Positions 5,460 to 58,624 of a DNA stretch of 64,000 nt are shown here, piece by piece. Origin of the DNA: Siphonodentalium dalli (Eukaryota; Mollusca; Scaphopoda; Gadilida; Siphonodentaliidae); assembly GCA_032622095.1 (NCBI GenBank), contig CP136064.1, positions 175,910,247 through 175,974,246 on the forward strand, in the 5' to 3' direction. The first letter of the stretch is position 1. Each line of letters begins with the position of its first letter. The translations under genes and the position numbers were made by a program. The notes under the pieces were generated by a model, which saw nothing but the letters and a program-made list of their open reading frames with translations, searched no databases and was not told the DNA's origin.

Positions 5460-5734
5460 AATGGATCAGCCGCAGGCAAAGATCATACTATTTGCTGAAT
5501 AATGTACAGTTTGAAGCTATTATTCGGCTTAAAACACAACATCGTCCAAAACATCACCTCTGATCAGAATGGTTTACCTGAAATTTGGTAAAAACAGTGG
5601 ATGTATACCACATTGTTTGCCCTGTCCACCGCTCATTGGCTGCGTGGATGATTTGACATCTGAATCCATCATCAACTTAGTGGACTGTCACTACCCCATT
5701 GTTAGCTCAACTTTACTTATTTGTAAAACGGGCT

Positions 5735-29415: not shown

Positions 29416-30002
29416 TCACAGAGTGATACACCATGGGTGTGGCCAATATGTGTATATGGAGTAACCATATGGCCAATGGTTAAGTGAATTGGTAAACAAT
29501 GATTGACTATATGACCATGTGGTTATGAGTATACAAAGATTTGCTGAATTGTCATGAGTGAGGTGTATATGCAAGCCTGGAGTGTATGAATGGTCATGTG
29601 CGCGTGGTATTGGTATCTGTAGAACGTCTGTATGGCCATTGGTGATTTGTATATGTATACTTGGAGTGACTCTTTTGTTATGGGTGTGGTGTATATGTAT
29701 ATATTGAGTGACTATCATGGCCATGGGATTGGCAAATACATATACATGGAGTAATTGTATGGCCAATGGTGAGGCAAATATGTTACAAGAAGTGACTGTA
29801 TGATCATGAATGTGATGTAGAGCTATATATAGAGTGACTATACAGTCGTGGGTGAGGTGTAGAAGTACCTGGTGTGCCTGCGTGGTGACTTGTAGCTATA
29901 TAGTCAAGTGCGTGGTATACGGGTATACCTTAGTTTGGCTGAACGGTCATGGATGAGGTATATGTGTAAAAGGTGAGTGGCTACTTGGTCATTTATGTGG
30001 TG
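29416..30002 (+). repeat. Degenerate 42-bp minisatellite, copy 1 block B
   Basis: Same boxes as block A ('gaggtgtatatg', 'ggagtgact', 'tatggccatgg') but more diverged. Confidence 0.8.
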
Positions 30003-31079: not shown

Positions 31080-31168
31080 GTATATATGGAGCGAGTGTAT
31101 GGTCATGGGTGGGTTGTACATGTGTAAATTTGGGTGGCTATCGCTTTACATAATAACTCAGGGATATA

Positions 31169-33497
31169 CCCCAGTTTCCTGACCATGAATTATTCATGAT
31201 TATTCACGGATAATTCATGAATAACAGAATTTCAGTACGAAAACGACACAGGTCGGCATGGGCTGGCCTAGATCCTACTAGTAATATACTTGAATGTATA
31301 TGGAACATCACTGGAATTTCATGGTTGATATACTGAATCCGAATTTCATGGTTATTGAATTTTCCTATCCAGTCTCCACTGTTCATCCCATTCAAAATCA
31401 GCGAGCTCGCCGGTTTCCGTGTCAAGACACCATTTCACTTCGAATTGAAATTTTGATGTATTGTAAACAGTACTATTGCCTTCACATAATAATGACCAAG
31501 AATGATTACGGTATTCCAATTTTATAGTTTTACGATGTGCACACACTGTCATAATAATCATATTCCATATAATTATATTCCTCAAAGTTCCCTCAAGTTC
31601 AACAGATCCACTGATTGTGTGCGACGGTTTTCAATTTTAAAAATTATACCGCGTAAATTTCGTCTGTTTGAAAAAGCGGCTTGCAGAAAGAAACGGATCG
31701 TTGAGGTTGTTTTATGGGTATTTTGCTTCATCAGGATTATTTCTACACAAAGTATATACAAACAATGATTTACATTGGCATTATATTAATAAATGATATA
31801 TCTAAAACGTCGCACATTTTGTATGACTCAATTCCATATTCCAGTTCCCGTTCCCGTTTTTCACTTTTCAAATTATTACTTTCGATTTCAAAGGGCACAT
31901 CCCCCCACGATATATTTGATTTGTTTTCATGATTATAAACCCAGGATCGCGACAATAAAGCTATTCGATAAAAGAACTGATAAAGCCACATGGGGCATTG
32001 AACCTTTTAAAAACATTATTTGGAATTTTGTTGTCCATAAATTGCATAATCCATCGCTTGTTAGATCAGAATTTAAAAAACATAATCAGCCCACGAAATT
32101 AGGAAAAATGTCGCCACGGCAAATTTAATCAAGCTGTAATATAGATATCACATGTTACCATGGTGTTTCACACAGCATTGCTTTATTTTGCTGTGGATTA
32201 TGTTGAAATTAATGATGCAAATTATCAAACACAAAAAAAACAAAAGTTTGCGGCAAAGATCTGCGAATATGTGCAATTGACTTTCTGCGAACAAACCATT
32301 TGCTGCAAACATGCCACACATTTGCTGCTAACTTGCAGCAAACAACCATTTTGATAAGGGATATATATGTCAACTTCCTTATCATATAAGAAAATATTTA
32401 TATAAAATGAATATTAATTGATAGAAGCATTTCCAGACAGGTGTCTTCGACATTATTACTTACCGCAAAATAAATAAAACGTGTTTACGAAGGGATAATC
32501 CATCTTTAATTAGTAAACACAGTCTGGTCTGCTTTGATTGTTATAATTGCTTATTGTTCATGGTTGTTCATGGAAGGATGAATTTCAGAATTTTTTTTAT
32601 TAAATATTAGACTTAAAATATTCATGGTTATTCATGATATAAAATTGCTATCCTATTTGTATTAAAATGTTAAACACACTGCATTAGACTAACATTTCTT
32701 TACTCAAAATATATACAAAAACTATTATATATAAATCCATTAAAGGTACTCAACCCGTAAAGAGGGTCCCCATCTCAACAGATTCCAACAACAACAATCC
32801 GATCAGAGGGTCCTATATTACTATTTCTTTGGCTTTGGGGGTAAAAAATATTTGATTCGAGTCGAGGAACCCATCAAACAAAGCTCAGAGTTATTAGATA
32901 TTGATTTTTCAAATTTGTTATGTTCTCGAGATGAGTACTAATAACTGCCGTAATCTGCTCTGGATGTGTACTCCAAATCTATTCAAACAGACAAGGATGA
33001 ATAACTCTAAAATCAAGTGGTAATTTTAACGCAATTTTGACTGAGTTCTGGGCCAGATAGTATTCCCGATAATGAAAAATAATAGATTTCGAAAATCGAT
33101 ATCTAACAAATCTGAGCTTTGATGGGTGACTTCCTCGACTCGAATCAAATATTTTTGACCCCCGAAGCCATTGAAATAGTAATTGAGAGGAGTTTTATCG
33201 GGTTGAGTACCTTTAATACATTCATGTTTATTCATGCTTATTCATACTTCCATGGCTATTATAATTTAATGTTTGCAATAATTCATGCTTATCCACACTT
33301 TTTCCTACCTTATAAACCTGCAAAATTTACTATTTCCAAAAGTTCATATATATTCATGCTAATTCAGCCTTTAAAACCATGATTAACCATGAACAAGCAT
33401 AACCATGAATATGCATCATGAATAAAGCATGAATATTCATGAATAATCATGAATATTCATGCTTTGTTCGTGCTCCATGAATTACAGGAAACTGGGG
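31169..33497. mobile_element. CCCCAGTTTCCTG element, second copy
   Basis: The ends CCCCAGTTTCCTG and CAGGAAACTGGGG are flanked by TA (31167-31168, 33498-33499), possibly a TA target duplication. The body matches 9908-11617 closely but carries a TTAA MITE at 32744-33212 and an extra ~64 bp near 31966, and lacks most of the left minisatellite. Confidence 0.85.
32744..33212 (+). mobile_element. TTAA-flanked MITE (AGGTACTCAA family), 469 bp
   Basis: The ends AGGTACTCAACCCG and CGGGTTGAGTACCT are flanked by TTAA (32740-32743, 33213-33216). The related element at 9307 has the uninterrupted site 'ccattaatacattc' near 11340, so the pre-insertion sequence is visible in this window. Confidence 0.93.
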
Positions 33498-34150
33498 TAT
33501 GTTAATCGATATAGAGGTAATGTCAGAGAGTTCTACATCCTGGTGATGGTTTATATGCACAATGGGGGAAACGGTTTTCCTGACATTGGTCATTTCGATG
33601 CCAATGAGCCACAATTTTATTGGCCTGAGTAGCCTCATAATAATGCCCCTTTCAGTTCATTTTCAAAGTTTTGTCCATTTCCGTACAAAAACATGGTCAG
33701 AATCCCAAAAGAGTTTTTGGCAAAATTCCGTACTGCATCCTTTATAATTAATTTGTCATGCCCCATAAGTGACATGGTTAATACAAAGTGAGTCACAATT
33801 TGCTACCTTTTTGGAACATCAGATAATAATATTCGGGATATATATGAATAATAAACTTTTTTACCAAATTTGGTGGCCATTTTGCAAACCATCTTGCAAA
33901 CCATCTTGAGTAATTTTGTCCAAAAACAGATCAGTGTGACCCATTTTAGACAGATCAAAACAATAAACACCTTCGATACCAAAGATAGTTCCATTTTACT
34001 TGAGAAAATTGTCTTAACCTGAAAAGTGAATTTTTGCTGATTTTGATGTCAAGTTTGTGATAGAAAAATCCAATAATTCTGGTAATGTCAGTGTTTAAAA
34101 TAGTAAAAATTAACCAAGGTGCATCAGAAATGGTAGTATTCAATCTATAA
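33498..34150. other. Unassigned part of duplicated unit
   Basis: No coding domain. It may belong to repeat V, whose clear inverted match starts at ~34150. Confidence 0.4.
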
Positions 34151-34520
34151 GACAGAATAGTCATTTTTTTATCGACCACAACTTGACATTTTGAGCCAAA
34201 GCGACAATTTGGGTACAATTGAGTTGGAATATTCATAAGAAATGGAATTTGTCACTTAGATTGCACAGTTCTTCCCATTTCTTGACGAAATGTGACTAGA
34301 ATCCCAATGGTGATTTTTGGTGAATGTTTATACTGTGTTCTGTAAAATCGAATTTTTAAGGGATCGGAGTTGGCAGGGAGCCCATGAATGGCATACATTT
34401 TTCATTGCTCCAATGGTCAGTTAACATGACCAATACAAAATAAAGTTACAATTCCCAAACAGTTTCAAAAAGCAGAAACTGATTTTAAAGAAATTAGTAC
34501 AAAAACGTCAATTTTTTAAA
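34150..34520 (-). repeat. Dispersed repeat V, inverted copy
   Basis: Reverse-complement similarity to 26685-26985: 'cattgctccaatggtcagtt', 'ccaatggtgatttttggtg' and 'cacagttcttcccatttctt' are all mirrored there. In copy 2 this repeat is the target of the ~4-kb family-I insertion. Confidence 0.75.
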
Positions 34521-34756
34521 TTTTGGCATCCATTATTGCGGCCATTTTGGATTATAGAAGACAAATTGATTGTGGATACAAAGGCGGACATCCAGGTATC
34601 GCTTCAATGTCAAGGTCAATTTGAAGGTCAAGGGGTCACCAAAATCCTGGAACCAGCTAACTGGTTGATGTGGACCGCATACCCAACCAACCCTGAAAGT
34701 TTCATGCTTTAATCCAAAAGTGAATGATTTTGCATTAAGCTACTCCACTAATATTT

Positions 34757-35193
34757 TTCTATTCCCCTACTTTTCAAAGAAAAGTGGTTGAAGGCTATGC
34801 TGGATTGACGTTGTCTGTTTGTCTGTCTGGGCGTTCATCCATCCAGGAATGTATCTCTGCCACATGTTATGTTTATATGGGATCTGATGTGAAATTTAGT
34901 TTGGAAGCTTGCCATCAGCGGTGCTTTCAACAGAGGGGCCAATTACATTATTCGTGTTTTCTGTTCTAGAGTTATGCCCTGACCCCAGAAGGTGGTTCAG
35001 GGTATATAGTCTAGGGCTCTGACTGTCTGTCCATCCATCCATCCATCCATACGAACATATCAACTTGTAACTCAGCCTCATAACAGATCACTTCTCAGAT
35101 CAATTGGTTAATTACATATGTTGACCATTTTCCCCATGCGTTGTCAAACACAACTGTTGTTGGAAAACCGAATACAGGCGATATATCCATAAT
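34757..35193 (+). repeat. Family-III-related fragment
   Basis: The head 'cccctacttttcaaagaaaa' + 'gtggttgaagg' is followed by 'ctggattgacg' and a CTGT tract, echoing the family-III head. No hairpin tail is found. Confidence 0.5.
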
Positions 35194-35242
35194 TATACCC
35201 CCACTTTCAAAGAAAATGGGGGGTATACTGGATTGACTGGAT
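35194..35242 (+). repeat. Truncated family-III head at duplication junction
   Basis: 'tatacccccactttcaaaga' ... 'ggtatactggattgactg' is the head of the element that continues normally at 47066 in copy 2. Here it is cut at 35239 and joined to the start of the next duplicate ('cgacgcatg'). Confidence 0.85.
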
Positions 35243-35725
35243 CGACGCATGTTCACGTGGAACATTGATTGACTACAGATATTGGTGTAAACAATATTTA
35301 TTTCAAAAATCAAACATATCACACAAACACAATACACATATAGATACAGATATTAGAAAAATTCTTGTCCGCTGGAATTTTTTAGGTGGCTGATGACGGG
35401 CGGGGGCCTCAGAATGACAAGCCTGCTGACTGACAGTTTATAACTGGATGTAGACTTTAAAAGTAGTCATTGTAATATCGCATTTATCACTTGTTTACCT
35501 GGGTGTAATATAGGCCGCATATATGATCGATTAATCGACTAACCGTCGACTATAACGGTCAAATAGTCGATTATGGAAACTCATAGTCGTGGCAACCCTA
35601 CTGAAGAAAAACAATTAATGACAAAATTTCCCTCAAATCAAACATACCTGTAGTCTTCACTCGTGCCCGCAACAGGGTTTACTCAATATTTGCCCGCAGC
35701 AGATATTATAGGATGACCAGCATGT

Positions 35726-36500
35726 TATAGCTGTACATGGAACGGCTGTATGGTCATGAATGTTGAAGTGTATATGTATACATGTATAGATGGATGGTCA
35801 TATTCGGGCGAGCGTGTTGGTATATATGAAGTGTCATTGTGATCATAGGTGTATATGGTATGTATGTGCATCTTTGCTGTTGGTCTATTGTTATTAGGGG
35901 GTATATATACATGTATACAGGGAGTCGCTGTATGATCATAGGATGTATGAGTATACAGCGAATGGCTGAATTGTCATGCGTGAGGTGTATATGCAAGTCT
36001 GGAGTATACAAATGGCCGTGTGTGTGGGGGTATTGGTGTATCCATTCAATGCTGAGGTATATATGTATACATGGAATGACTCTATGTCCATGTGGGGTGT
36101 ATATGTATATCCTGAGTGGCTATATGCCATGCATGTGTTAATAGGTATGAGGGAGATACCATACGGCCCATGGTGAGGTGGTGTACAGGGAACTGGTATG
36201 TCTTGAAGGGTTGTATGGCAATTGGTGAGGTGTATACGTACAACTGGAGTGACTATGGTCATGAGTGTGGTGTATATGTATATCTTGAGTGGCTATATGA
36301 TCATGGGTGTGGTCAATAGGTATACAGGGAGTGACCGTATTGCCAATGGTTAGGCGATGTGCAGGGTATTGGTATGTCTTGAAAGCTGCATGGCCACTGG
36401 TGAGGTGTATATGTATACCTGGAGTGACTTTATAGGCATGGGTGGGGTGTATATGTATATCTTTAGTGGCTATATGACCATGTGTTTCCCGAGTTGGGGG
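35726..36500 (+). repeat. 42-bp minisatellite, copy 2 block A
   Basis: Duplicate of 27830-28600, with a few substitutions such as 'gcaagtctgg' for 'gcaagtatgg'. Confidence 0.85.
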
Positions 36501-37312
36501 AGTAACCACGCCAAGCTTATTGAACATGTTGCTTTAACCTAGAATGACAAAAAATAAATAATAGAAAAAACATATCATAATATCCGTTCGCATGTGATCA
36601 CACAATGCACCATCTAGACCACACAGATGTGAGTAATACATTGAATCCAATACATATAACTTGAAATATGCCATCACCAAGACAATAGAGTATAATGAAA
36701 AATATAATAAAACTTTGATAAATAGTATAAACCTATCCACGACCATATACGTGTGAAATGAATGTGAACTGTAGATGAATAAATGAGACGAAACAAGTGG
36801 TATGAGGATGTTATGCAAGGACACGAAATGAAAAAATAGAAAACGCCCATACGGATGTTACATATGTTAGATGAAGTATGGAGAAACAGATGAATAGACA
36901 ACATGAATACAATTGACGTGACATGAGCATATGAATAAATGAAGTTGCAAATGGGAGTGAACACATATGACAGTGAATTCTGAATAGATGGACATGAGCC
37001 TATAAATGTGTACTGTTAAAGATGATAAGAAGTATAGAACGTTCCAATTGATTGATTGAACATCCATTGTAAAAAAAATTAATATAAACTTCAAATTACA
37101 CTTGTTAAACATATAAACAACAGATGAGATGACATTAAATTAAACTTAGGCATTGGCGGGTATACATGTAAATACTGTTCGTTTTGCAAATAGTTAAGTA
37201 TATATAAAAGAACAAATCCGAGCGAATTAAGTTGTGCGATGTCAGACAGCAAAAAGTTGGTATCGATGATATGCACCACTCAAGGACGTTCACCATGAAT
37301 AACGATCATAAA

Positions 37313-37899
37313 TCACAGAGTGATACACCATGGGTGTGGCCAATATGTGTATATGGAGTAACCATATGGCCAATGGTTAAGTGAATTGGTAAACAATGAT
37401 TGACTATATGACCATGTGGTTATGAGTATACAAAGATTTGCTGAATTGTCATGAGTGAGGTGTATATGCAAGCCTGGAGTGTATGAATGGTCATGTGCGC
37501 GTGGTATTGGTATCTATAGAACGTCTGTATGGCCATTGGTGATTTGTATATGTATACTTGGAGTGACTCTTTTGTTATGGGTGTGGTGTATATGTATATA
37601 TTGAGTGACTATCATGGCCATGGGATTGGCAAATACATATACATGGAGTAATTGTATGGCCAATGGTGAGGCAAATATGTTACAAGAAGTGACTGTATGA
37701 TCATGAATGTGATGTAGAGCTATATATAGAGTGACTATACAGTCGTGGGTGAGGTGTAGAAGTACCTGGTGTGCCTGCGTGGTGACTTGTGGCTATATAG
37801 TCAAGTGCGTGGTATACGGGTATACCTTAGTTTGGCTGAACGGTCATGGATGAGGTATATGTGTAAAAGGTGAGTGGCTACTTGGTCATTTATGTGGTG
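37313..37899 (+). repeat. 42-bp minisatellite, copy 2 block B
   Basis: Duplicate of 29416-30002. Confidence 0.8.
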
Positions 37900-38976
37900 T
37901 TATTATACCCCCACTTTCGAAGAAAATGGGGGGATATACTGGATTGACTGCGTCTGTCTGTCACGCTTTCTCCCTCCGTGTGTCGTTCTGTCTGTCCGTC
38001 CGTCCGTCCTCATAACTCGAACAACTATGAACCAATTTCAATAATTTATTGTATGCAATCTCCTTAGGACTGCCTCTCTGCATGATGCTAATTGCGGTTC
38101 GGTTCGACTTTTTTGTTTAAAGTTACACCTCATTTTCGACTTAGAAAATTTCTCACTTTTTCGGTTTCCGGATGATATCTCAAGTTTTGATCCTTTAATT
38201 GCAAATACCGTTTTTTTGTAGATCAGTCATATCAAGATACAGGTTGAATTCGAATTTGAGTTTGATCCGATGATTTTTTCTAGAGTAATGGACTTTTTTG
38301 ACTTAGAAAATTCAATTTTCTTCTTTTTTTTTTGGTTTCCAGATGATAACTAAAGTTTGGACTGTTCAATTGAAAATTACGTCTTTGTGTGAGTCAATGA
38401 TATCATAATACAGGTCAAGTTCGAATTTGAGTTTGATCCGATGATTTTTCTCAGAGTTATGGGCTTTTCGACTTATAAAATTAAATTTTACTTGTTGTTT
38501 TCTTTGGTTTCCGGATGATAACTCAAGTTTGGATTGTTTAATTGGAAATTCTGTTTTTTTTGTGGGTCGTTCATATCAAAATACAGGTCAAGTTCGAATT
38601 TGATCCAATGATTTTTCCCAAAGTTATGGGCCTTTCGACTTTGAATTTTTTTTTTTATAATTTTCTGTTTTTCGGTATGAGGGTACCTTCATGGTATATT
38701 CAACTCCTCCTACAGTTTGGTCGTAGATATTTGAAACTTCCTTTTTTTTTGGTTGCTATCACACTCGACAAAAGCCATCTTAGATGTTAAGGTTGCGTTT
38801 CATTTTCTACCCTTTTTGGGGTTTCTGCAATCATTCAAACAAATATGAACCAATATCAAAATTATTAATCTAAATTTTTCTTTAAAGTTAAAAATCTTTT
38901 TTGTTAGGTTTACGGATAATGCGGGTTGAATTTGCCACAGTGGGGGAATGCTAGCACTCGAGTGCACACCTCTTGT
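37900..38976 (+). mobile_element. Family-III Helentron-like element, copy 2
   Basis: Duplicate of 30003-31079 with the same CCCCCACT/AGTGGGGG subterminal repeats, CCGT tract and terminal hairpin. It is here by segmental duplication, not by a separate insertion. Confidence 0.8.
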
Positions 38977-39065
38977 GTATATATGGAGCGAGTGTATGGT
39001 CATGGGTGGGTTGTACATGTGTAAATTTGGGTGGCTATCGCTTTACATAATAACTCAGGGATATA

Positions 39066-41394
39066 CCCCAGTTTCCTGACCATGAATTATTCATGATTAT
39101 TCACGGATAATTCATGAATAACATAATTTCAGTACGAAAACGACACAGGTCGGCATGGGCTGGCCTAGATCCTACTAGTAATATACTTGAATGTATATGG
39201 AACATCACTGGAATTTCATGGTTGATATACTGAATCCGAATTTCATGGTTATTGAATTTTCCTATCCAGTCTCCACTGTTCATCCCATTCAAAATCAGCG
39301 AGCTCGCCGGTTTCCGTGTCAAGACACCATTTCACTTCGAATTGAAATTTTGATGTATTGTAAACAGTACTATTGCCTTCACATAATAATGACCAAGAAT
39401 GATTACGGTATTCCAATTTTATAGTTTTACGATGTGCACACACTGTCATAATAATCATATTCCATATAATTATATTCCTCAAAGTTCCCTCAAGTTCAAC
39501 AGATCCACTGATTGTGTGCGACGGTTTTCAATTTTAAAAATTATACCGCGTAAATTTCGTCTGTTTGAAAAAGCGGCTTGCAGAAAGAAACGGATCGTTG
39601 AGGTTGTTTTATGGGTATTTTGCTTCATCAGGATTATTTCTACACAAAGTATATACAAACAATGATTTACATTGGCATTATATTAATAAATGATATATCT
39701 AAAACGTCGCACATTTTGTATGACTCAATTCCATATTCCAGTTCCCGTTCCCGTTTTTCACTTTTCAAATTATTACTTTCGATTTCAAAGGGCACATCCC
39801 CCCACGATATATTTGATTTGTTTTCATGATTATAAACCCAGGATCGCGACAATAAAGCTATTCGATAAAAGAACTGATAAAGCCACATGGGGCATTGAAC
39901 CTTTTAAAAACATTATTTGGAATTTTGTTGTCCATAAATTGCATAATCCATCGCTTGTTAGATCAGAATTTAAAAAACATAATCAGCCCACGAAATTAGG
40001 AAAAATGTCGCCACGGCAAATTTAATCAAGCTGTAATATAGATATCACATGTTACCATGGTGTTTCACACAGCATTGCTTTATTTTGCTGTGGATTATGT
40101 TGAAATTAATGATGCAAATTATCAAACACAAAAAAAACAAAAGTTTGCGGCAAAGATCTGCGAATATGTGCAATTGACTTTCTGCGAACAAACCATTTGC
40201 TGCAAACATGCCACACATTTGCTGCTAACTTGCAGCAAACAACCATTTTGATAAGGGATATATATGTCAACTTCCTTATCATATAAGAAAATATTTATAT
40301 AAAATGAATATTAATTGATAGAAGCATTTCCAGACAGGTGTCTTCGACATTATTACTTACCGCAAAATAAATAAAACGTGTTTACGAAGGGATAATCCAT
40401 CTTTAATTAGTAAACACAGTCTGGTCTGCTTTGATTGTTATAATTGCTTATTGTTCATGGTTGTTCATGGAAGGATGAATTTCAGAATTTTTTTTATTAA
40501 ATATTAGACTTAAAATATTCATGGTTATTCATGATATAAAATTGCTATCCTATTTGTATTAAAATGTTAAACACACTGCATTAGACTAACATTTCTTTAC
40601 TCAAAATATATACAAAAACTATTATATATAAATCCATTAAAGGTACTCAACCCGTAAAGAGGGTCCCCATCTCAACAGATTCCAACAACAACAATCCGAT
40701 CAGAGGGTCCTATATTACTATTTCTTTGGCTTTGGGGGTAAAAAATATTTGATTCGAGTCGAGGAACCCATCAAACAAAGCTCAGAGTTATTAGATATTG
40801 ATTTTTCAAATTTGTTATGTTCTCGAGATGAGTACTAATAACTGCCGTAATCTGCTCTGGATGTGTACTCCAAATCTATTCAAACAGACAAGGATGAATA
40901 ACTCTAAAATCAAGTGGTAATTTTAACGCAATTTTGACTGAGTTCTGGGCCAGATAGTATTCCCGATAATGAAAAATAATAGATTTCGAAAATCGATATC
41001 TAACAAATCTGAGCTTTGATGGGTGACTTCCTCGACTCGAATCAAATATTTTTGACCCCCGAAGCCATTGAAATAGTAATTGAGAGGAGTTTTATCGGGT
41101 TGAGTACCTTTAATACATTCATGTTTATTCATGCTTATTCATACTTCCATGGCTATTATAATTTAATGTTTGCAATAATTCATGCTTATCCACACTTTTT
41201 CCTACCTTATAAACCTGCAAAATTTACTATTTCCAAAAGTTCATATATATTCATGCTAATTCAGCCTTTAAAACCATGATTAACCATGAACAAGCATAAC
41301 CATGAATATGCATCATGAATAAAGCATGAATATTCATGAATAATCATGAATATTCATGCTTTGTTCGTGCTCCATGAATTACAGGAAACTGGGG
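39066..41394. mobile_element. CCCCAGTTTCCTG element, third copy
   Basis: Duplicate of 31169-33497, including its internal TTAA MITE at 40641-41109. Confidence 0.85.
40641..41109 (+). mobile_element. TTAA-flanked MITE, duplicate copy
   Basis: Duplicate of 32744-33212, carried along by the segmental duplication. Confidence 0.9.
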
Positions 41395-42297
41395 TATGTT
41401 AATCGATATAGAGGTAATGTCAGAGAGTTCTACATCCTGGTGATGGTTTATATGCACAATGGGGGAAACGGTTTTCCTGACATTGGTCATTTCGATGCCA
41501 ATGAGCCACAATTTTATTGGCCTGAGTAGCCTCATAATAATGCCCCTTTCAGTTCATTTTCAAAGTTTTGTCCATTTCCGTACAAAAACATGGTCAGAAT
41601 CCCAAAAGAGTTTTTGGCAAAATTCCGTACTGCATCCTTTATAATTAATTTGTCATGCCCCATAAGTGACATGGTTAATACAAAGTGAGTCACAATTTGC
41701 TACCTTTTTGGAACATCAGATAATAATATTCGGGATATATATGAATAATAAACTTTTTTACCAAATTTGGTGGCCATTTTGCAAACCATCTTGCAAACCA
41801 TCTTGAGTAATTTTGTCCAAAAACAGATCAGTGTGACCCATTTTAGACAGATCAAAACAATAAACACCTTCGATACCAAAGATAGTTCCATTTTACTTGA
41901 GAAAATTGTCTTAACCTGAAAAGTGAATTTTTGCTGATTTTGATGTCAAGTTTGTGATAGAAAAATCCAATAATTCTGGTAATGTCAGTGTTTAAAATAG
42001 TAAAAATTAACCAAGGTGCATCAGAAATGGTAGTATTCAATCTATAAGACAGAATAGTCATTTTTTTATCGACCACAACTTGACATTTTGAGCCAAAGCG
42101 ACAATTTGGGTACAATTGAGTTGGAATATTCATAAGAAATGGAATTTGTCACTTAGATTGCACAGTTCTTCCCATTTCTTGACGAAATGTGACTAGAATC
42201 CCAATGGTGATTTTTGGTGAATGTTTATACTGTGTTCTGTAAAATCGAATTTTTAAGGGATCGGAGTTGGCAGGGAGCCCATGAATGGCATACATTT

Positions 42298-45200
42298 TTA
42301 GCTCAACTTACTTGTAAGTTTGAGCTATTGCCATGGTTTGGCGTCCGTCGTCCGTGTGTGCGTGTGTCCGTGTGTCCGTCAACAATTTCCTTTGGCGCGG
42401 GCTACAGGTCGTACCTTTGGTCTGATCTTTATGAAATTTTGCATGAATGTTGACATTGACATGTAGATGGGAACGAGTCATTTTGGGGTCATTCGGCCAA
42501 AAAACATGGCCGCTGGTAGCCATCTTGGATTTCAAAATTCAATCCATTGGCGCGGGCTACAGGTCGTACTGTTCTTTTGATCATCATGAAATTTGTCATG
42601 GATGTTAATATTGACATGTAGATGGGAACGAGTCATTTTGGGGTCGTTCGGCCAAAAAACATGGCCATCAGCAGCCATCTTGGATTTTACTCTTTGCATG
42701 ACTAAATCATTTGGCGCAGGCTACAGGTCGTAGTTTTGATTGGAACTTCATGAAATTTGTCATGGATGTTAACAATGACATGTAGATGGGAACGAGTGAT
42801 TTTGGGGTTGTTCGGCCAAAAAACATGGCCGCCAGCAGCCATCATGGATTTTACTCTTTGCATGACTAAATCCTTTGGCGCGGGCTACAGGTCGTACCTT
42901 TGGTCTGATCTTTATGAAATTTGTCATGAATGTTGACATTGGCATGTAGATGGGAACGAGTCATTTTGGGGTCATTCGGCTAAAAAACATGGCCACTGGT
43001 GGCCATTTTGGATTTCAAAATTCAATCCATTGGCGCGGGCTACAGGTCGTACTGTTCGTCTGATCATTATGAAATTTGTCATGGATGTTAATATTAACAT
43101 GTAGATGGGAACGAGTGATTTTGGGGTCGTTCGGCCAAAAAACATGGCCGCTGGCAGCCATCATGGATTTTACTCTTTGCATGACTAAATCCTTTGGCGC
43201 GGGCTACAGGTCGTACCTTTGGTCTGACCTTTATTAAATTTGTCATGAATATTGATATTGACATGTATATGGGAACGAGTCTTTTTGGGGTCATACGGCC
43301 AAAAAACATGGCCGCTGGCAGCCATCTTCGATTTTACTCTTTGCATGACTAAATCCTTTGCCGCAGGCTACAGGTCGTAGTTTTGATCAGAACTTCATGA
43401 AATTTGTCATGGATGTTAACAATGACATGTCGATGGGAACGAGCGATTTTGGGGTTGTTCGGCCAAAAAACATGGCCGCCAGCAGCCATCATGGATTTTA
43501 CTCTTTGCATGACTAAATCCTTTGGCGCGGGCTACAGGTTGTACCTATGGTCTGATCTTTATGAATTTTGTCATGAATGTTGACATTGACATGTAGATGG
43601 GAACGAGTGATTTTGGGGTCATTCGGCCAAAAAACATGGCCGCTGGTGGCCATTTTGGATTTCAAAATTCAATCCATTGGCGCGGGCTACAGGTCGTGCT
43701 GTTTGTCTGATCATCATGAAATTTGTCATGGATGTTAATATTGACATGTAGATGGGAACGAGTGATTTTGGGGTCGTTCGGCCAAAAAACATGGCCGCTG
43801 GCAGCCATCATGGATTTTACTCTTTGCATGACTAAATCCTTTGGCGCGGGCTACAGGTCGTACCTTTGGTCTGACCTTTATTAAATTTGTCATGAATATT
43901 GATATTGACATGTATATGGGAGCGAGTCATTTTGGGGTCATACGGCCAAAAAACATGGCCGCTGGCAGCCATCTTGGATTTTACTCTTTGCATGACTAAA
44001 TCCTTTGGCGCAGGCTACAGGTCGTAGTTTTGATCAGAACTTCATGAAATTTGTCATGGATGTTAACAATGACATGTAGATGGGAACGAGTGATTTTGGG
44101 GTTGTTCGGCCAAAAAACATGGCCGCCAGCAGCCATCATGGATTTTACTCTTTGCATGACTAAATCCTTTGGCGCGGGCTACAGGTCGTACCTATGGTCT
44201 GATCTTTATGAATTTTGTCATGAATGTTGACATTGACATGTAGATGGGAACGAGTGTGTTTGGGGTCATTCGGCCAAAAAACATGGCCGCTGGTGGCCAT
44301 TTTGGATTTCAAAATTCAATCCATTGGCGCGGGCTACAGGTCGTGCTGTTCGTCTGATCATCATGAAATTTGTCATGGATGTTAATATTGACTTGTAGAT
44401 GGGAACGAGTGATTTTGGGGTCGTTCAGCCAAAAAACATGGCCGCCAGCAGCCATCTTGGATTTTACTCTTTGCATGACTAAATTCTTTGGCGCGGGCTA
44501 CAGGTTGTAGCTTTGGTCAGAACTTCATGAAATTTGTCATGGATGTTAACAATGACATGTAGATGGGAACGAGTGATTTTGGGGTTGTTCGGCCAAAAAA
44601 CATGGCCGCCAGCAGCCATCATGGATTTTACTCTTTGCATGACTAAATCCTTTGGCGCTGGCTACAGGTCGTACCTATGGTCTGATCTTTATGAATTTTG
44701 TCATGAATGTTGACATTGACATGTAGATGGGAACGAGTCATTTTGGGGTCATTCGGCCAAAAAACATGGCCGCTGGTGGCCATTTTGGATTTCAAAATTC
44801 AATCCATTGGCGCGGGCTACAGGTCGTGCTGTTCGTCTGATCATCATGAAATTTGTTATGGATGTTAATATTGACATGTAGATGGGAACGAGTGATTTTG
44901 GGGTCGTTCAGCCAAAAAACATGGCCGCCAGCAGCCATCTTGGATTTTACTCTTTGCATGACTAAATTCTTTGGCGCGGGCTACAGGTTGTAGCTTTGGT
45001 CAGAACTTCATGAAATTTGTCATGGATGTTAACAATGACATGTAGATGGGAACGAGTGATTTTGGGGTTGTTCGGCCAAAAAACATGGCCGCCAGCAGCC
45101 ATCATGGATTTTACTCTTTGCATGACTAAATCCTTTTGCGCGGGCTACAGGTCGTACCTATGGTCTGATCTTTATGAATTTTGTCATGAATGTTGACATT

Positions 45201-46274
45201 GACATGTAGATGGGAACGAGTCATTTTGGGGTCATTCGGCCAAAAAACATGGCCGCTGGTGGCCATTTTGGATTTCAAAATTCAATCCATTGGCGCGGGC
45301 TACAGGTCGTGCTGTTCGTCTGATCATCATGAAATTTGTCATGGATGTTAATATTGACATGTAGATGGGAAACGAGTGATTTTGGGGTCGTTCAGCCAAA
45401 AAACATGGCCGCCAGCAGCCATCTTGGATTTTACTCTTTGCATGACTAAATTCTTTGGTGCGGGCTACAGGTCGTACCTATGGTCTGATCTTTATGAATT
45501 TTGTCATGAATGTTGACATTGACATGTAGATGGGAACGAGTCATTTTGGGGTCATTCGGACAAAAAACATGGCCGCTGGTGGCCATTTTGGATTTCAAAA
45601 TTCAATCCATTGGCGCGGGCTACAGGTCGTGCTGTTCGTCTGATCATCATGAAATTTGTCATGGATGTTAATATTGACATGTAGATGGGAAACGAGTGAT
45701 TTTGGGGTCGTTCAGCCAAAATGGCCGCCAGCAGCCATCTTGGATTTTACTCTTAGCATGACTAAATTCTTTGGTGCGGGCTACAGGTCGTAGCTTTGGT
45801 CGGAACTTCATGAAATTTGTCATGTATGTTAACAATGACATGTAGATGGGAAACGAGTCATTTTGGGGTCGTTCAGCCGAAAAACATGGCCGCCAGCAGC
45901 CATCTTGGATTTTACTCTTTGCATGACTAAATCCATTGGCACAGGCTACAGGTCATACCTTTGATCAGATCATTATGAGATTTGTAAAGGCTGTAGATGG
46001 GAACAAGTCATTTTGGGGTAATTCGGAAAAAAAACATGGCTGTCGGTGGCCATTTTAGAATTTACTCTTTGCATCAATAAATCCTTGGGCACACCATAAT
46101 CACCACATCCCTGATCCGATCATTATGAAACCTGTTATGAATGTTGATATTGACATGTACATCTAGTCTTACTTAGACATTTCAATTAGCACTTTTCCTA
46201 TTCCTCCATTTACTGTCGACCATTAAATTATTCCCCTACCTAAGTTGAGCTACAGTGTCATTGACACTTTCATT
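42298..46274 (+). mobile_element. Family-I HINE/pearl-like element, ~3,975 bp
   Basis: Copy 1 reads 'catacatttttcattgctcc' without a break at 34393-34412. Here the same sequence is split after the T-run and resumes at 46275, so both edges are fixed to within two T bases. The 5' end has a fold-back of AGCTCAACTTA with TAAGTTTGAGCT, then 'cgtccgtcgtccgtgtgtg' and 'gtcaacaatttcc'. About 23 monomers of 155-165 bp follow. The 3' end has TAAGTTGAGCT (inverse of the 5' repeat), hairpin AGTGTC-att-GACACT and TTCAT. Insertion between T residues, subterminal inverted repeats and a 3' hairpin are Helentron/HINE traits. No protein is encoded. Confidence 0.88.
42394..45938 (+). repeat. ~160-bp satellite-like array with higher-order periods
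   Basis: The box 'ggcgcgggctacaggtcgt' recurs at 42394, 42549, 42713, 42877, 43032, 43196, 43360, 43524, 43679, 43843, 44007, 44171, 44326, 44490, 44654, 44809, 44973, 45137, 45292, 45457, 45612, 45773 and 45938. The 155-base monomer ('tttcaaaattcaatccattgg') and 164-base monomers alternate in fixed order. 43032-43678 and 43679-44325 form two 647-bp tetramers. 44326-44808 and 44809-45291 form two 483-bp trimers. 45292-45611 is a ~320-bp dimer. Confidence 0.9.
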
Positions 46275-47065
46275 CATTGCTCCAATGGTCAGTTAACATG
46301 ACCAATACAAAATAAAGTTACAATTCCCAAACAGTTTCAAAAAGCAGAAACTGATTTTAAAGAAATTAGTACAAAAACGTCAATTTTTTAAATTTTGGCA
46401 TCCATTATTGCGGCCATTTTGGATTATAGAAGACAAATTGATTGTGGATACAAAGGCGGACATCCAGGTATCGCTTCAATGTCAAGGTCAATTTGAAGGT
46501 CAAGGGGTCACCAAAATCCTGGAACCAGCTAACTGGTTGATGTGGACCGCATACCCAACCAACCCTGAAAGTTTCATGCTTTAATCCAAAAGTGAATGAT
46601 TTTGCATTAAGCTACTCCACTAATATTTTTCTATTCCCCTACTTTTCAAAGAAAAGTGGTTGAAGGCTATGCTGGATTGACGTTGTCTGTTTGTCTGTCT
46701 GGGCGTTCATCCATCCAGGAATGTATCTCTGCCACATGTTATGTTTATATGGGATCTGATGTGAAATTTAGTTTGGAAGCTTGCCATCAGCGGTGCTTTC
46801 AACAGAGGGGCCAATTACATTATTCGTGTTTTCTGTTCTAGAGTTATGCCCTGACCCCAGAAGGTGGTTCAGGGTATATAGTCTAGGGCTCTGACTGTCT
46901 GTCCATCCATCCATCCATCCATACGAACATATCAACTTGTAACTCAGCCTCATAACAGATCACTTCTCAGATCAATTGGTTAATTACATATGTTGACCAT
47001 TTTCCCCATGCGTTGTCAAACACAACTGTTGTTGGAAAACCGAATACAGGCGATATATCCATAAT

Positions 47066-48188
47066 TATACCCCCACTTTCAAAGAAAATGGGGGGTATAC
47101 TGGATTGACTGCATCTGTCCGTCCGTCCGTCATCTGTCTGTCCGTGTTTACATATGGGCATATATTGGTTACTTTGTGGGTACAATGGGCACTTGTTGGG
47201 TATTTTCCACCTTGTTGGGTATTTTCCCTGTTGTTGGGTATACCCAATAGCCCTGACAAGTTATTCTTTGTCCAAACATATTTTTTGGCTTTCATGTGAA
47301 TGTACTCAACAGGTGGTTTGGACTTCATTTGTCCTAAAAAAAAGTCCATAATGTCCAAACCAGAACCCAACAAAAAAATATTGGATGACCCACTATGTGC
47401 CTATTTGTGAGATTTTTTTCATACCCAACAAGGGATTTTTTTCATACCCAACAAGGGAACCCAATAAGATTTTGGACAACTGACCCAATTTGTGCCCAAA
47501 TGAGAACCCAAGATGACTTCAACTTATTTGAATTTACTCAACAATGTCTGCATTTTTTAGCCAATAAATATCTGAACAGATCTATGCAGCCAACAATATT
47601 TTAATTGTGCCCAACCAGAACCCAACAAAAAAATATTGGATGACCCACTATGTGCCTATTTGTGAGAACACATTTTTCATACCCAACAAGGGAACCCAAT
47701 AAGATTTTGGACAACTGACCCAATTTGTGCCCAAATGTGGGTCAGTGCGTCTGTCTGTCCGTCCGTCCGTCACACTTTCTCCCTCCGTGTGTCCGTCCGA
47801 CCTCATAACTCGAACAACTATGAACCGATTTCAATAATTTTTTGTGTGCAATCTCCTTAGGACCGCATGATGCTAATTGCGGTGCGGTCCGACTTTCTTT
47901 TTTTAAGTTACGCCTTACTTTTCGACTTATTTTGACTTAGAAAATTCTGTCCGACTTAATAACTTTAACAAATATGAACCGATTTCAATAATTTTTGGTA
48001 TACATGCTTCTCACAACACCCTCTCTACATGATGTGGGTCATGGTTGGCTCGGACTGTTTTTCCTAACATTACACTTCATTTTCGACTTATTTTGTGTGT
48101 GGATGCTATCAAGTTAGGGTTTACGTATAATGCAGGTTGAATTTGCCACGGTGGGAGTATGCTGGCACCCGAGTGCACAACTCTTGTT
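47066..48188 (+). mobile_element. Family-III Helentron-like element, third copy
   Basis: Head 'tatacccccactttcaaaga' plus 'aaatggggggtatactgg' and a CCGT tract. The tail 'ccacggtgggagtatgctgg' has the hairpin 'gcacccgagtgc' and 'acaactcttgtt'. The right breakpoint of the segmental duplication falls at 47111, just before its CCGT microsatellite. The interior is split by the insertion at 47146-47740. Confidence 0.75.
47146..47740. mobile_element. Inverted-repeat insertion with ACATTTGGGCA ends
   Basis: The left 'acatatgggcatatattgg' and the reverse complement of the right 'caatttgtgcccaaatgt' pair with few mismatches. Inside, 'ttggatgacccactatgtgc' and 'ataagattttggacaactga' each occur twice (47382/47635 and 47464/47699). 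Removing it joins two CTGT/CCGT tracts of the surrounding family-III element. The target duplication is not clear. Confidence 0.6.
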
Positions 48189-52278: not shown

Positions 52279-53376
52279 TTAACTAGTAACATCCAAATCA
52301 GGTTGAATCATTCCAGAGCTCAGGACATCTACTAGACTATGGAAATTGGCACCTGCCTTGGTCATACAGTCCGATATCTGTCTACTTGCAGCAATCCATT
52401 TCACTTCCACTTCGCCTTTTTCAACACTTTCCTTGATGCTGGCCAACTCAACTCTCAACCGTTTTTCAGATACTAGTTTAGTAGAGTGAATGTTCTCATA
52501 CAGTGATTTGTTGTCTGTCATACAGACAATTGGAATGTTCTGTTTTTCAGGAACAATTTCCTTAAGAATGTTCTGTACATATATACATAAATCTATCCCA
52601 TCAACTAGAGCTAGTGCTTCTGCGGCCAAAGTGCTTTTAACCACTCTCCTTATTTTCTTTGAGAACCATGCAATAGGGCAGCACAGAATTGAACCTCCAG
52701 CGCTAGAAACTCTGTCTGATAAATTGGCATATGATGCGTCAGAATACACCACAATCTCAATGTTGTCAAGACTGCCCAAACTTGGAAACATCATTTTATA
52801 CTGATTATTCTTGGCTTTTCGGATCACTTTGTTAATCTTTTTGCCTAGTTTACAAGGATTCTCTTCACTTGTGGTGCTAAGATCTAGTATGTCAAAGCTG
52901 AGATCTGGCCTGGTTTGTGTGGCGATCCAATGTAACTGTCCAATGATTACACTGAGAAGTCGGTCTTGTCTGGAAACAGAACTAACTTGCTGTAATTCCT
53001 CAATATAATTGTTCTGATGAAGTTGAATGATGTCATTATTTTGTGTGATATCCAGTCCAATATACTTAAATATCTTGTCCTGTTTTTTTCCACACTGAAA
53101 CCTAGACATAACATTGTCTACCACATTCTTCTTAAAATCTCCTGTACCTGCCCACAGGAAATCGTCCACGTGCATAAAAAATAAACCACTTAAATTTTCT
53201 CCATCTTTAAAGTAGAACAGTGAAGGGTCCATTCTTGATTGAACACATCCCAGTTTGATCAGTTCTCCTCTCACACTCACAAACCAGTGTCTCGAAGCAT
53301 CGACCAATCCATATACACACTTTTTTAATTTCCACACCTGCTGTCTATCGTGGAGAGCTTCTTCTGGTGGTCGCAC
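52279..53376 (-). CDS. pol: copia pol: C-terminal RT and RNase H frame
   Basis: 365 codons; the apparent start is not a real start, since the frame continues upstream into the RT domain before a 1-base slip. It carries the RT box VYGLVDASRHWF, the catalytic HVDDF (Asp pair near residues 71-72, the YVDD position) and an RNase H domain with VVYSDASYAN, an AAEALALVDG helix and CMTDNKSLYENIHST, then KWIAASRQISDCMTK. These make cDNA from the element RNA and remove the RNA template. The TAA stop lies within the TTAA of the adjoining MITE. Only the frameshift upstream separates it from the rest of pol. Confidence 0.93.
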   Translation of the reverse strand: MRPPEEALHDRQQVWKLKKCVYGLVDASRHWFVSVRGELIKLGCVQSRMDPSLFYFKDGENLSGLFFMHVDDFLWAGTGDFKKNVVDNVMSRFQCGKKQDKIFKYIGLDITQNNDIIQLHQNNYIEELQQVSSVSRQDRLLSVIIGQLHWIATQTRPDLSFDILDLSTTSEENPCKLGKKINKVIRKAKNNQYKMMFPSLGSLDNIEIVVYSDASYANLSDRVSSAGGSILCCPIAWFSKKIRRVVKSTLAAEALALVDGIDLCIYVQNILKEIVPEKQNIPIVCMTDNKSLYENIHSTKLVSEKRLRVELASIKESVEKGEVEVKWIAASRQISDCMTKAGANFHSLVDVLSSGMIQPDLDVTS

Positions 53377-53386
53377 AAATATGTCT

Positions 53387-53809
53387 CTATCTATGTTTCT
53401 CCCCTGCAGAAAATGCAGATTTTACATCAATGGAATGAATCATATATTTTAATGTTGAAGAAAGCACAAGAAACAGTCGAAGACATTCTTTGTGAACTGT
53501 AGGAGAGTCAGTTTTTGTATCAATCACTTCTTGAAATCCTCTTATCACTAGTCTTGCTTTCACAGCTGTTTCACCATTCACCTCTTTTTCCGTTATAACC
53601 CATCTGGTAGTCACACATTCTTGGTTAGTATACGTCATTTCTTCGTATACTTGAAATTCTTTCCAGTTATCAAGTTCTTTCTGTTTTGCCAATCTGACAA
53701 TTTCTTGTTTGTGCTCTTTCGAGGGAACCGTCACAATATTACTTTCCTCTTCATCATCTGATACTAACTCCCATTCTTCCACATCATTACTGAAACTCAA
53801 TCCGATCAT
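53387..53809 (-). CDS. pol: copia pol: N-terminal RT frame
   Basis: 140 codons covering the first part of the RVT_2 reverse-transcriptase domain: WKEFQVYEEM, the ARLVIRGFQE motif and DVKSAF with the first catalytic Asp near residue 128. It runs out after DVKSAF because one extra T in a TTTT run (about 53413-53416) shifts the frame; the following RT residues are in the frame of 52279-53376. Its start overlaps the stop of the integrase frame as ATGA. I think that overlap also reflects a 1-base slip, although stop-restart coupling cannot be excluded from sequence alone. Confidence 0.9.
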   Translation of the reverse strand: MIGLSFSNDVEEWELVSDDEEESNIVTVPSKEHKQEIVRLAKQKELDNWKEFQVYEEMTYTNQECVTTRWVITEKEVNGETAVKARLVIRGFQEVIDTKTDSPTVHKECLRLFLVLSSTLKYMIHSIDVKSAFSAGEKHR

Positions 53810-56256
53810 TTCTGCATTTCTTCTTTCAAATTCATATATGCCCAGTTCTTTCCAGTAGCTTTGCCACCTCTGCTAATCACTTTAGCTTTCCTCCATCGGT
53901 CACTTCCTTTCATCTTAAATTTAATTTCTGTATTCAGTTGCGGTAGCTGTTTAGATGTAACTTGCTCTGATGATACACTAGTTTTACTAACTGTCTGATC
54001 ATTACTTGCTGACATTTGCTGGTTATCACTTACATCATTATTGGGCATACCAGCATCATCTTCTTGCTTAACATCATCTGAAGGTAACTTGATACTTTCT
54101 TTATCTGTTTTTTCATCTTCTGTGTTGCCAACCTCTGAAACTGTTCTGAATTCATCGCCACATCTGGTTAGCCGGCAGGGATGGACACGAACATACACAC
54201 TTCCATGTCTCACAAATACAACTTTTGCATCTTGTCCAATTACCACTGCTGGACCTTTCCACTTATTGTCATTGTCTCTTTTATAATACACTCTGTCTCC
54301 ATTTACAAAAAATTCTTGGGATGCTCTGATTTGATGTCTCAAGGCTTTTCTGATTCTTTCAGATGACTCTGTTTGTATAAAAGAGCGTCTACTAGAATGA
54401 AGGGCATTCAGATGTCTTGCAAATGTTTCAGAGATGATAGTGTTCTCTAATGCTGGCGGTTTGTCGGTTAACACAGAAGGTAGATTGGGATTCTTGCCAA
54501 AAACCAACTGGTATGGACTCCATCCATAAACCATGCTTAACGAGTTCTTGGCATTGATGGCCCACACCAAAGCAACTTCAAGATTCAACTTAGGATGATC
54601 TTCAAGAATTTTTGCCACACAATCATCCACTACCGCATGATTTCTTTCGCATAAACCATTTTGCCAAGGACTGTATCCGGCTGTGTTAAGCATCTCAATG
54701 TTCAAGTTCTGACACATGTCACTAAAAACTTCATTTGCAAATTCCCCGCCATTGTCAGCAAGAAATTTCTTGGGTGCACCCATTCCACTCCCAATCCAAA
54801 GAGTCATGACCTTCTCTACTATCACTTCAGGTGTCTTCCTCTTTATCACAGCCACTAGACTGAAGCGCGTAGCCATGTCAATCATATGTAGAAAATACAG
54901 TCCTGGTGACCACACCTTTAAATCAAGTGCTACTGCTTCATTAAATTCTGTTGCCATAGGTAAGGAAACTGCTGGTCGTGCTGGAGTCTTTTTGTACATC
55001 TTACAGGTTTCACAAGAATCAGTCACTTTATCCACACACTTCAAATGACCATCAGCATATCCACCAGCATCTTTCAGCAATGATTTCAGTCTTTTAGCTG
55101 ATGGATGAGCAAATTGCTTGTGCAACTTCAGAATCACCTTTTCCTTGTCTTGTTCAGACACTGAAGCAACAAGTGCTTCCGCAGTCTCATTAACATTAAC
55201 TGATACATGACCAATCGGAACACAATAATGTCCTGATGTTGTACATTGTAACTGAACCTGCCTTCCAAATATGAGTGCACTATCATTTTCCAAGTCCAGT
55301 ACCATCCTTGCTTTTTTCATGGCATCCTTACTGAGGAGCAAGGGAATGTCACTTTTCACAACATCGGTCTCTATTTCACATTCCATTCCTGCAAGCAAAC
55401 ATGGAATTGTAACTCTCCCTTCCGATTTCAGAACAGTTCCACCTCCAAATTTGAAAATCTTGTCACTTGAAGAGTATTTCACTTTCTCTCGCTCAGCAAC
55501 AGTCAGAGAATCAACATAGCAGTTTATCCAAGCTCTACCGGTAACTGTTGCACTACAGGCACTGTCTAAAATAGCTGCATTCCGAGCTTCTGTAGCAAGC
55601 ATAACAGACTCAATCCCTCTGCTTCCTGTGAACAGAACAGCATTTTGAACAGGCTTAGCCATATTCTCATATGAATGAGGACAGTTTTTTACAAGGTGTC
55701 GAATAGAGTCACAACTGAGGCACCTCAGTGGCAAGCCATCAGGCCCACTAGGATTGATGGATTTGGTGGACTTTGGAGTAACATCAGTCCTGTTATGAGA
55801 ATATTGCCCATGCTGATCGACCGAATTATTGTTCCAACGCCCTCTGTTTGTCCTCTGCCTTTGTCCTCTGAAGTAACCACGTCCACTCACTCTCCCCGCA
55901 TAATTTACTTCTTCAGCCACCATGCAGGATGGTTCCACTTTAATGTTCAAACCAAGATCACATTTACTAGCTGAGGCTGCGTGTTGACCGAAAAACTTTT
56001 TTAGAGAATCACGCATTTGCTTGAACAAAGTTTCAACTTTGGCATAGTCCACACCAGTTAATGCTAACTGCCTATCTTTCATCTCCAGATTAGATGCTTC
56101 CAAGAGCTTGAATGCCAACACAGACTGAGGGAGCTCCATTTTATGTTTCTTTGTCTGGTTATAAAGTTTTTCAAATTCTGTGACAAAGTTATCCATAGAC
56201 TCTGATGTACGTTTATATCTGTCAAATGAAGTGTAGATCTCGTATGCTTCACTCAA
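53806..56256 (-). CDS. gag-pol: copia gag C-terminus, protease and integrase frame
   Basis: 816 codons from the first Met; the frame is open up to ~56347, so the Met at 56256 is probably not the true start. In order: gag helices; a CCHC knuckle C179-X2-C182-X4-H187-X4-C192; protease with D231-S-A at the active site; the integrase HHCC zinc site H379, H384, C415, C418; and a DDE core D445, D501, E537 with the standard 35-residue gap between the last two. The C-terminal part is acidic and low in complexity. Functions: RNA packaging, polyprotein cleavage and insertion of cDNA. The catalytic residues visible here are intact. Confidence 0.95.
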   Translation of the reverse strand: MSEAYEIYTSFDRYKRTSESMDNFVTEFEKLYNQTKKHKMELPQSVLAFKLLEASNLEMKDRQLALTGVDYAKVETLFKQMRDSLKKFFGQHAASASKCDLGLNIKVEPSCMVAEEVNYAGRVSGRGYFRGQRQRTNRGRWNNNSVDQHGQYSHNRTDVTPKSTKSINPSGPDGLPLRCLSCDSIRHLVKNCPHSYENMAKPVQNAVLFTGSRGIESVMLATEARNAAILDSACSATVTGRAWINCYVDSLTVAEREKVKYSSSDKIFKFGGGTVLKSEGRVTIPCLLAGMECEIETDVVKSDIPLLLSKDAMKKARMVLDLENDSALIFGRQVQLQCTTSGHYCVPIGHVSVNVNETAEALVASVSEQDKEKVILKLHKQFAHPSAKRLKSLLKDAGGYADGHLKCVDKVTDSCETCKMYKKTPARPAVSLPMATEFNEAVALDLKVWSPGLYFLHMIDMATRFSLVAVIKRKTPEVIVEKVMTLWIGSGMGAPKKFLADNGGEFANEVFSDMCQNLNIEMLNTAGYSPWQNGLCERNHAVVDDCVAKILEDHPKLNLEVALVWAINAKNSLSMVYGWSPYQLVFGKNPNLPSVLTDKPPALENTIISETFARHLNALHSSRRSFIQTESSERIRKALRHQIRASQEFFVNGDRVYYKRDNDNKWKGPAVVIGQDAKVVFVRHGSVYVRVHPCRLTRCGDEFRTVSEVGNTEDEKTDKESIKLPSDDVKQEDDAGMPNNDVSDNQQMSASNDQTVSKTSVSSEQVTSKQLPQLNTEIKFKMKGSDRWRKAKVISRGGKATGKNWAYMNLKEEMQK

Positions 56257-56333
56257 ATCATCTTTTTTGAAAATCGAGTCCAGGAACTTAATTAGCTTGT
56301 CCAGACCATCATCAGTATTCAGTTCCGCTACAC

Positions 56334-56549
56334 TTAAGTCACTGAAAACTTATCACGCACACCACTGCTGTCATCTTCAGGAAACGATAATGCGACCGCT
56401 AGACCTTGTTTCTTTTTGTCCACATCAGTAATTGTTTTCCACGCCTTAAGTTCTTCCACCCATCGGTTGTATGGCTTCTTGTCTGAGAAAATGGGAGGGA
56501 CTTTATAATTAACCGAAGACGCCATGAGTCCAAACTGACCGCTATACAC
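56334..56549 (-). CDS. gag: copia gag N-terminal frame
   Basis: 71 codons from Met at 56549, with a second Met nine codons in (56525) that is equally plausible. It shows the copia gag pattern PPIFSDKKPYNRWVEELKAW. It stops at 56334 a few codons after RDKF; the adjacent frame continues the gag domain, so a 1-base loss near 56344 is the likely cause. It lies 135 bases inside the 5' LTR. Confidence 0.85.
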   Translation of the reverse strand: MYSGQFGLMASSVNYKVPPIFSDKKPYNRWVEELKAWKTITDVDKKKQGLAVALSFPEDDSSGVRDKFSVT

Positions 56550-58406: not shown

Positions 58407-58624
58407 CTGCATGAAGCTTGGCTCATAATAAGCTGCTAGAATGGGTATATTTGTCTATTAGGACAATGGCGGATAGGAGTAGGTTATCTTCCGCATAGAG
58501 GGCGCTACGCGCAAAGTCGGTCCTGCAATGTAAACAATTAATTCCATCGCTCTATAGAATCAGCGTGGAATGATTGGAATCGGATGTTCTTCTGCGTGTT
58601 CTTTCTCTCAAATTCGTTTTTAAA

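Follow-up and report, generated by a model that had tools for sequence, protein, structure and literature searches.

Introduction

Dispersal of satellite-like arrays by non-autonomous Helentrons (HINEs) has already been described for Cg_HINE of the Pacific oyster (PMC7492417; this and the other papers below are cited from the accessible parts of their text). Herein, we analysed a 64,000-nucleotide stretch of the scaphopod Siphonodentalium dalli, referred to as the window (175.91-175.97 Mb of contig C4; 2.23-Gb genome in nine contigs). It contains a 3,975-bp insert, W (positions 42300-46274, + strand), which is very probably a young HINE carrying an ordered satellite array, moved ready-made by a Rep-helicase and inserted at TT. 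W shares its layout with the oyster elements, which have an 11-12-bp subterminal inverted repeat (subTIR) at the 5' end, accompanied by a short complementary inverted repeat, a microsatellite (GTCY, GTCC or GTCK in several of them), a central array whose units, mostly of 140-180 bp, all have one orientation, and a 3' subTIR with a palindrome; as at W, the target is TT, a target duplication is not indicated and empty sites were found (PMC7492417). Unlike in Cg_HINE as described there, unit order is conserved between copies of the W family. The arrays also differ in length, with 9-29 unit anchors here (median 17, in a set selected by likeness to W) vs. cluster averages of 2.3-5 in Cg_HINE (PMC7492417).

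HINE-Mo/Helentron-Mo of a mite and DINE-1 of Drosophila resemble W in being non-coding, in their subTIRs and 3' palindrome, and in TT-flanked insertion into T-rich sequence with no target modification seen in the accessible account (PMC4067079). The inverted repeat and microsatellite of W recall DINE-1; compared with the mite families, its 3' subTIR and hairpin are placed closer to the 3' end. For the mite an autonomous partner is known, unlike for W (PMC4067079); for the oyster elements the helper is likewise not identified (PMC7492417). Other bivalve elements with central repeats, namely Pearl (oyster, ark), MgE (mussel) and DTC84 (clam), are comparable to W in architecture, judged by their description, and Pearl arrays are described as having at most six repeats of ~160 bp (PMC7492417). 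Given that W showed those structural HINE features that are testable, we assigned it to the HINEs, with a layout like that of Cg_HINE. The W-type element is a new HINE alongside the known Cg_HINE and DINE-1 kinds.

Insertion of W at a site with an empty counterpart

Comparison of the window with itself revealed a head-to-tail tandem duplication of a segment of ~8 kb. Copy 1 (27347-35243, +, 7,897 bp) is empty and is directly followed by copy 2 (35243-47115, +), which holds W. A preliminary description of this DNA, made from the sequence alone, had proposed a Helentron-like element with its empty site preserved and reported 3,975 extra bases at a T-run of copy 2 that is uninterrupted in copy 1. 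Both points were borne out: a query of the joined flanks (90 + 90 = 180 bp) matched copy 1 at 34313-34492 (+) with 100% identity, with the junction at 34402/34403, and the start given earlier, 42298, was off by two ambiguous T only. The insertion begins right after TTTTT (42295-42299, +), the TT of which lies immediately 5' of W. Copy 1 here reads GGCATACATTTTT directly followed by CATTGCTCC, with zero bases lost, in agreement with the earlier claim of no base loss at the target. Because TT is present both at the end of W and at the site, the breakpoint is uncertain by two bases. The ends can therefore be placed in three ways, one of which is a 2-bp TT duplication, and this cannot be told apart from insertion with no target duplication. 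The same uncertainty is stated for the mite HINEs (PMC4067079).

The search for further empty sites covered the DNA of the window and of the sister loci fetched from elsewhere in the genome (numbered L0nn). The joined flanks of L028 matched L004 with 99.5% identity over 597 bp and an exact junction after TTTTT, and those of L013 matched L037 with 89% identity over 93 bp, the junction lying between CATTTATT and GGAG. No base was lost at the W, L028 or L013 sites. L025 and L026 lie inside monomers of another satellite family and have empty relatives at 73-87% identity. Members of the W family are found lodged in monomers of other satellite families (L028 flanks, L025, L026), forming nested satellite-bearing elements.

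The target of W lies in a dispersed host repeat. Among the best 40 of 1,633 candidates scored, 39 were other loci, and all 39 lacked the insert at 90-93% identity, which indicates that the empty state is ancestral for the host repeat. These matches were shorter than the query by 4 bp in 33 loci, 3 bp in five and 5 bp in one. A CATT stands to the left of the T-run in both duplicates (34396-34402, 42293-42299); it was missing in three aligned copies of the host repeat and in two diverged copies within the window. It equals the last four letters of W, which may be a coincidence or may go back to an earlier event. Just before the duplication starts (26676-27220, minus), the host repeat also occurs as two diverged copies in inverted orientation (78-80%).

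Anatomy of W

From 5' to 3', W consists of a subTIR, a short spacer, a complementary inverted repeat, a microsatellite, the array, a tail of ~290 bp, a second subTIR, a hairpin and TTTCATT. The 5' subTIR, AGCTCAACTTA (11 bp, 42300-42310, +), and the 3' subTIR, TAAGTTGAGCT (11 bp, 46241-46251, +), were recognised from an inverted-repeat listing and from family comparison. They were listed as 12-bp arms (42299-42310 and 46241-46252) and formed the sole 100% complementary pair among the 14 listed for 42200-46400, which upholds the inverted repeats of the preliminary description. The inverted repeat beside the 5' subTIR (TAAGTTTGAGCT, 42315-42326, +) was found by reading the sequence; together with the subTIR it folds as DNA at -7.6 kcal/mol (z -3.67), more stably than the shuffles, of which 1 of 200 folds equally well. 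The GTCC/GTGT microsatellite (42350-42379, +; repeat analysis, family comparison) varies in length among copies. By repeat analysis, the satellite-like array (42388-45985, +) is made up of ~22-23 units of 155/164 bp and shows multi-unit periods of 319 and 483 bp. The 3' terminal hairpin, AGTGTC-ATT-GACACT (46254-46268, +), was identified by reading, folding and family comparison. W tested as having no coding capacity: among 56 stop-to-stop open reading frames (ORFs) of at least 90 amino acids (aa) in the window, one lies inside W, and this 94-aa ORF is within the array.

The W family in the genome

To collect relatives, the genome was searched with 50 bp of left flank plus the 5' end, and the best 40 of 2,157 first-look candidates were scored, the window included. 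The first 20 of the 39 other loci listed were fetched, giving 21 elements with W. Both ends recurred in the same orientation in 20 of 20 fetched copies; the preliminary description had named family copies ending at different sequences as what would speak against it, and these 20 did not behave in that way. A standalone satellite array without an element was ruled out on the same grounds. The left flank ended in TT in 21 of 21 elements and TTTTT preceded 17 of 21, both favoured by the query, and the base following the terminal CATT was variable.

HINE families are recognised by identical subTIRs of at least 11 bp shared by their members, and perfect 11-bp subTIRs were present at both ends of 20 of the 21 elements, the exception being L027. 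The exact 33-bp 3' end was found in 18 elements, with changed letters in L014, L025 and L027. Over the last 60 positions, 20 elements (W included) were within 0-2 differences of W; L027 has small deletions in this terminal 60 bp and gave no ungapped alignment. The succession of subTIR, inverted repeat, microsatellite and tandem array in one orientation was present in all 21. Element lengths ranged from 1,714 to 4,942 bp (median 3,011) in this set picked by likeness to W, and pairwise differences averaged 1.55% for the left part and 0.88% for the right one. Genome-wide, the exact 33-bp 3' end occurred 9,599 times (4,790 + 4,809) vs. 0 for the reversed control, indicating that its recurrence is not due to chance.

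Inheritance of the satellite array

The 21 elements were cut at a shared anchor into 327 units, and clustering at 7% gave nine types. The unit string of W is BCABACABACABDABDABABDE, and that of both L024 and L028 is BCABACABACABDABDAFGE. The head order is thus common to these three elements, and the tail order ABABDE is common to W and L014. Arrays start with BC and end with E in all 21 elements. Comparison of the first 16 units of W and L028 gave 0.97% difference by position vs. 3.2% when units were shuffled within type, and none of 5,000 shuffles was as good. For W vs. L024 and W vs. L009, too, none of 5,000 shuffles was as good; for W vs. L010 and W vs. L018, one of 5,000 shuffles each was as good, and this may be the unshuffled order itself. 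Among the pairs with a shared prefix of at least eight units, matching by position equalled or beat all 500 shuffles in 45 of 47. In addition, the nearest relative of the 22 W units was in another element for 16, tied for 6 and in W itself for none; for all 327 units it was outside the own element for 246, tied for 67 and inside for 14. Outside matches are favoured by the far greater number of candidates outside an element than within it, a bias from which the shuffle test is free. Given the unit-by-unit positional matching, the array most likely formed before landing, and the sequences point to an ordered array inherited as a block rather than regrown.

Expansion of the array at the W site after the landing of a short element would account for the identity of W units 5 and 9. 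Identical unit pairs were also found in L017 and L023, several in each; they look like signs of block duplication in those lineages and would mean that arrays of the W family are able to grow by blocks. However, L009, L018 and L028 show the same identity between units 5 and 9, no W unit is closest to another unit of W, and the head and tail orders of W recur in L024 and L028 and in L014, respectively. We therefore consider expansion at the site extremely improbable; the growth suggested for L017 and L023 does not appear to have made the W array here. The preliminary description had left it between an array that moves and one that rapidly expands. The unit-by-unit match to sister elements supports movement, and expansion at this site is opposed by the nearest relatives of the W units.

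Order of duplication and insertion

The two copies of the duplication differ by 10 substitutions and a one-base indel in 7,897 bp. Ten of these 11 differences fall within the first 3.9 kb (27347-31227 half), and one substitution lies at the junction. The 4,012 bp containing the insertion site (31228-35239 half) showed no difference, and the 95% upper bound on divergence there is ~0.075%; a gap this long has a chance of ~0.01 under uniform placement. The difference-poor second half suggests, as far as sequence can tell, conversion or exchange there.

The simplest reading of these sequences is that the duplication came first and that W would then have inserted into copy 2. This order, which the preliminary description had proposed, is not forced, as haplotype exchange, conversion or an assembly join would look alike, and the uneven spread of the differences leaves room for exchange or conversion. 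W may have inserted in one haplotype first, and the duplication would then have been made when a filled haplotype underwent unequal exchange with an empty one, so that the insertion would be the older event. A mosaic in which 10 of 11 differences fall within the first 3.9 kb, with the next 4,012 bp free of any, could be left by exchange or conversion. However, this order requires a second event, and the low divergence of the copies fits a simple recent duplication, a comparison that depends on the heterozygosity of this animal. We regard the exchange of haplotypes as possible but unlikely. An assembly fault, in which empty and filled haplotypes were joined end to end, is in our judgement improbable. 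False duplications are known to arise when contig ends overlap yet differ by a 4-kb insertion, and the copies abut with ~1 base of shared sequence at the junction, but there is no N in the window and the nine contigs measure 190-301 Mb. Even a false duplication would leave the insertion standing, as the pair would then be two alleles, one empty and one filled. It is very improbable that W predates the duplication and that excision or gene conversion then deleted it precisely from copy 1. No difference separates the copies across the 4 kb containing the site, so conversion there would be possible, but the insert is missing from every other host-repeat copy scored, and we know of no precise excision of Helentron-type elements, which counts against the excision variant. 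An excision footprint at copy 1 was ruled out by the presence of the CATT in both duplicates.

Candidate helper proteins

The genome contains Rep-helicase genes, as evidenced by at least 151 Helitron_like_N matches (best 150 of 457 candidates scored) vs. 0 in 14 control genomes. One locus (G000:C8:82471748-82480339, minus) carries a stop-free frame of 2,864 aa encoding OTU, Helitron_like_N (Rep), PIF1 and Exo_endo_phos domains. This set of Rep, helicase and endonuclease domains is the Helentron set, and on its sequence the locus is a candidate autonomous Helentron-like element.

Other features of the window

Four relatives of W, all on the + strand, were detected in the window by motif search. 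An older, shorter relative at 5704-6959 has both ends and a shortened 5' block. A 5'-truncated relative at 11630-12188 consists of an array remnant and the 3' end, and a 3'-truncated one at 15137-15640, with its right edge set by eye, has the 5' end, the microsatellite and a few units. The last of the four, at 2835-2869, is a diverged 3' end found by motif search. Of these relatives, the two that possess a 5' end also have TT before it, and both were found by motif alone.

A further satellite-bearing stretch, which begins near ATGTTTACCCATACCATAGTATGG, has TTGACTCTTTCATT as its end, and TTGACATTTTCATT is the end of a third stretch (18041-18510, 16488-16501). Both TTGACTCTTTCATT and TTGACATTTTCATT are one letter off the 3' end of W, and a single terminus type may be common to unrelated arrays. 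The duplication has its right edge (47080-47140) at a stretch running from GGGGGTATACTGG to GTCCGTCC; this stretch resembles one near 13900-13960 and is possibly the start of another HINE-type family. A Pfam search of six window frames gave matches in three. Two are copia-like retroelement ORFs (52279-56349, minus), with RVT_2 clear and the integrase core slightly below the cut-off, and one has a THAP domain (58574-58843), a sign of animal DNA.

Discussion

The layout of W, its TT target and the lack of base loss fit Helentron-type transposition. A Rep-helicase protein encoded elsewhere in the genome would probably recognise the 5' subTIR and the 3' subTIR with its hairpin. The whole element, array included, would be copied by a rolling-circle-type mechanism and the copy pasted at a TT dinucleotide with the target bases kept, so that the array would arrive ready-made, unit order included. 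Unit number would change in the interior of arrays, probably through unequal exchange or slippage within the source lineage, with the opening pair of unit types and the closing type kept fixed.

Several observations weigh against this explanation. The family query held the 5' end and TTTTT, so its ranking favours those features; the 3' end and the unit order are unaffected. The 3' hairpin noted in the preliminary description is real as a repeat, and the AGTGTC/GACACT palindrome is common near the 3' end to most of the family, but its fold is unremarkable (-3.8 kcal/mol, z -1.45; 20 of 200 shuffles equal it). Two of the 47 pairs with a long shared prefix and the 14 units with their nearest relative inside their own element oppose positional inheritance. 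A source copy identical to W was not found among the copies compared, the nearest being ~0.7-1% off in aligned head units. A search with a tail query gave best matches besides W at 98%; one of these, L041, is an element with seven unit anchors, and its 5' end was not in the stretch read. The 2,864-aa frame lacks the Rep motif RG(S/L)(P/L)HxH and reads RGAKHWH, which by the motif rule in the accessible text of PMC4067079 places it outside both the standard Helentrons and the standard Helitrons. No close match to the W ends was found in 14 kb around this frame, nor were the ends found in four 1.5-1.6-kb stretches downstream of other Rep-helicase loci, which were placed by estimate and may miss the ends. 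Two of these four loci belong to the same family as the 2,864-aa frame locus.

The preliminary description regarded the locus as direct evidence for the movement of a whole array. This wording was too strong, and array dispersal by HINEs is, as said above, known from the oyster. A unit-by-unit test of en bloc inheritance was not found in the accessible parts of PMC7492417, PMC4067079, PMC12628747 and PMC8268682, in a search that left most of the subscription literature outside. The wider proposal is that a HINE can copy an ordered satellite array of ~20 units as a single heritable cassette, that long arrays do not stop mobility (the similar copies analysed here have a median of 17 unit anchors), and that units are gained and lost mid-array in source lineages while the terminal types are fixed; to us the chances that it is right or wrong are evenly balanced.

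How satellite DNA spreads is an open question, and an array carried whole is usually hard to distinguish from one regrown after landing. At this locus the empty neighbouring site fixes the boundaries of W to within two bases, and the variant monomers serve as bar codes that point to ordered inheritance. Since one chromosome-scale assembly contains thousands of identical 3' ends, the genealogy by which arrays grew and were lost can be put to the test. The W family is also a case to weigh against the simple rule, modelled in PMC8268682 according to its accessible text, that mobility is lower in longer arrays. If the cassette proposal is true, it would qualify the model in which mobility falls with unit number, and the genealogies of such arrays would be readable unit by unit.

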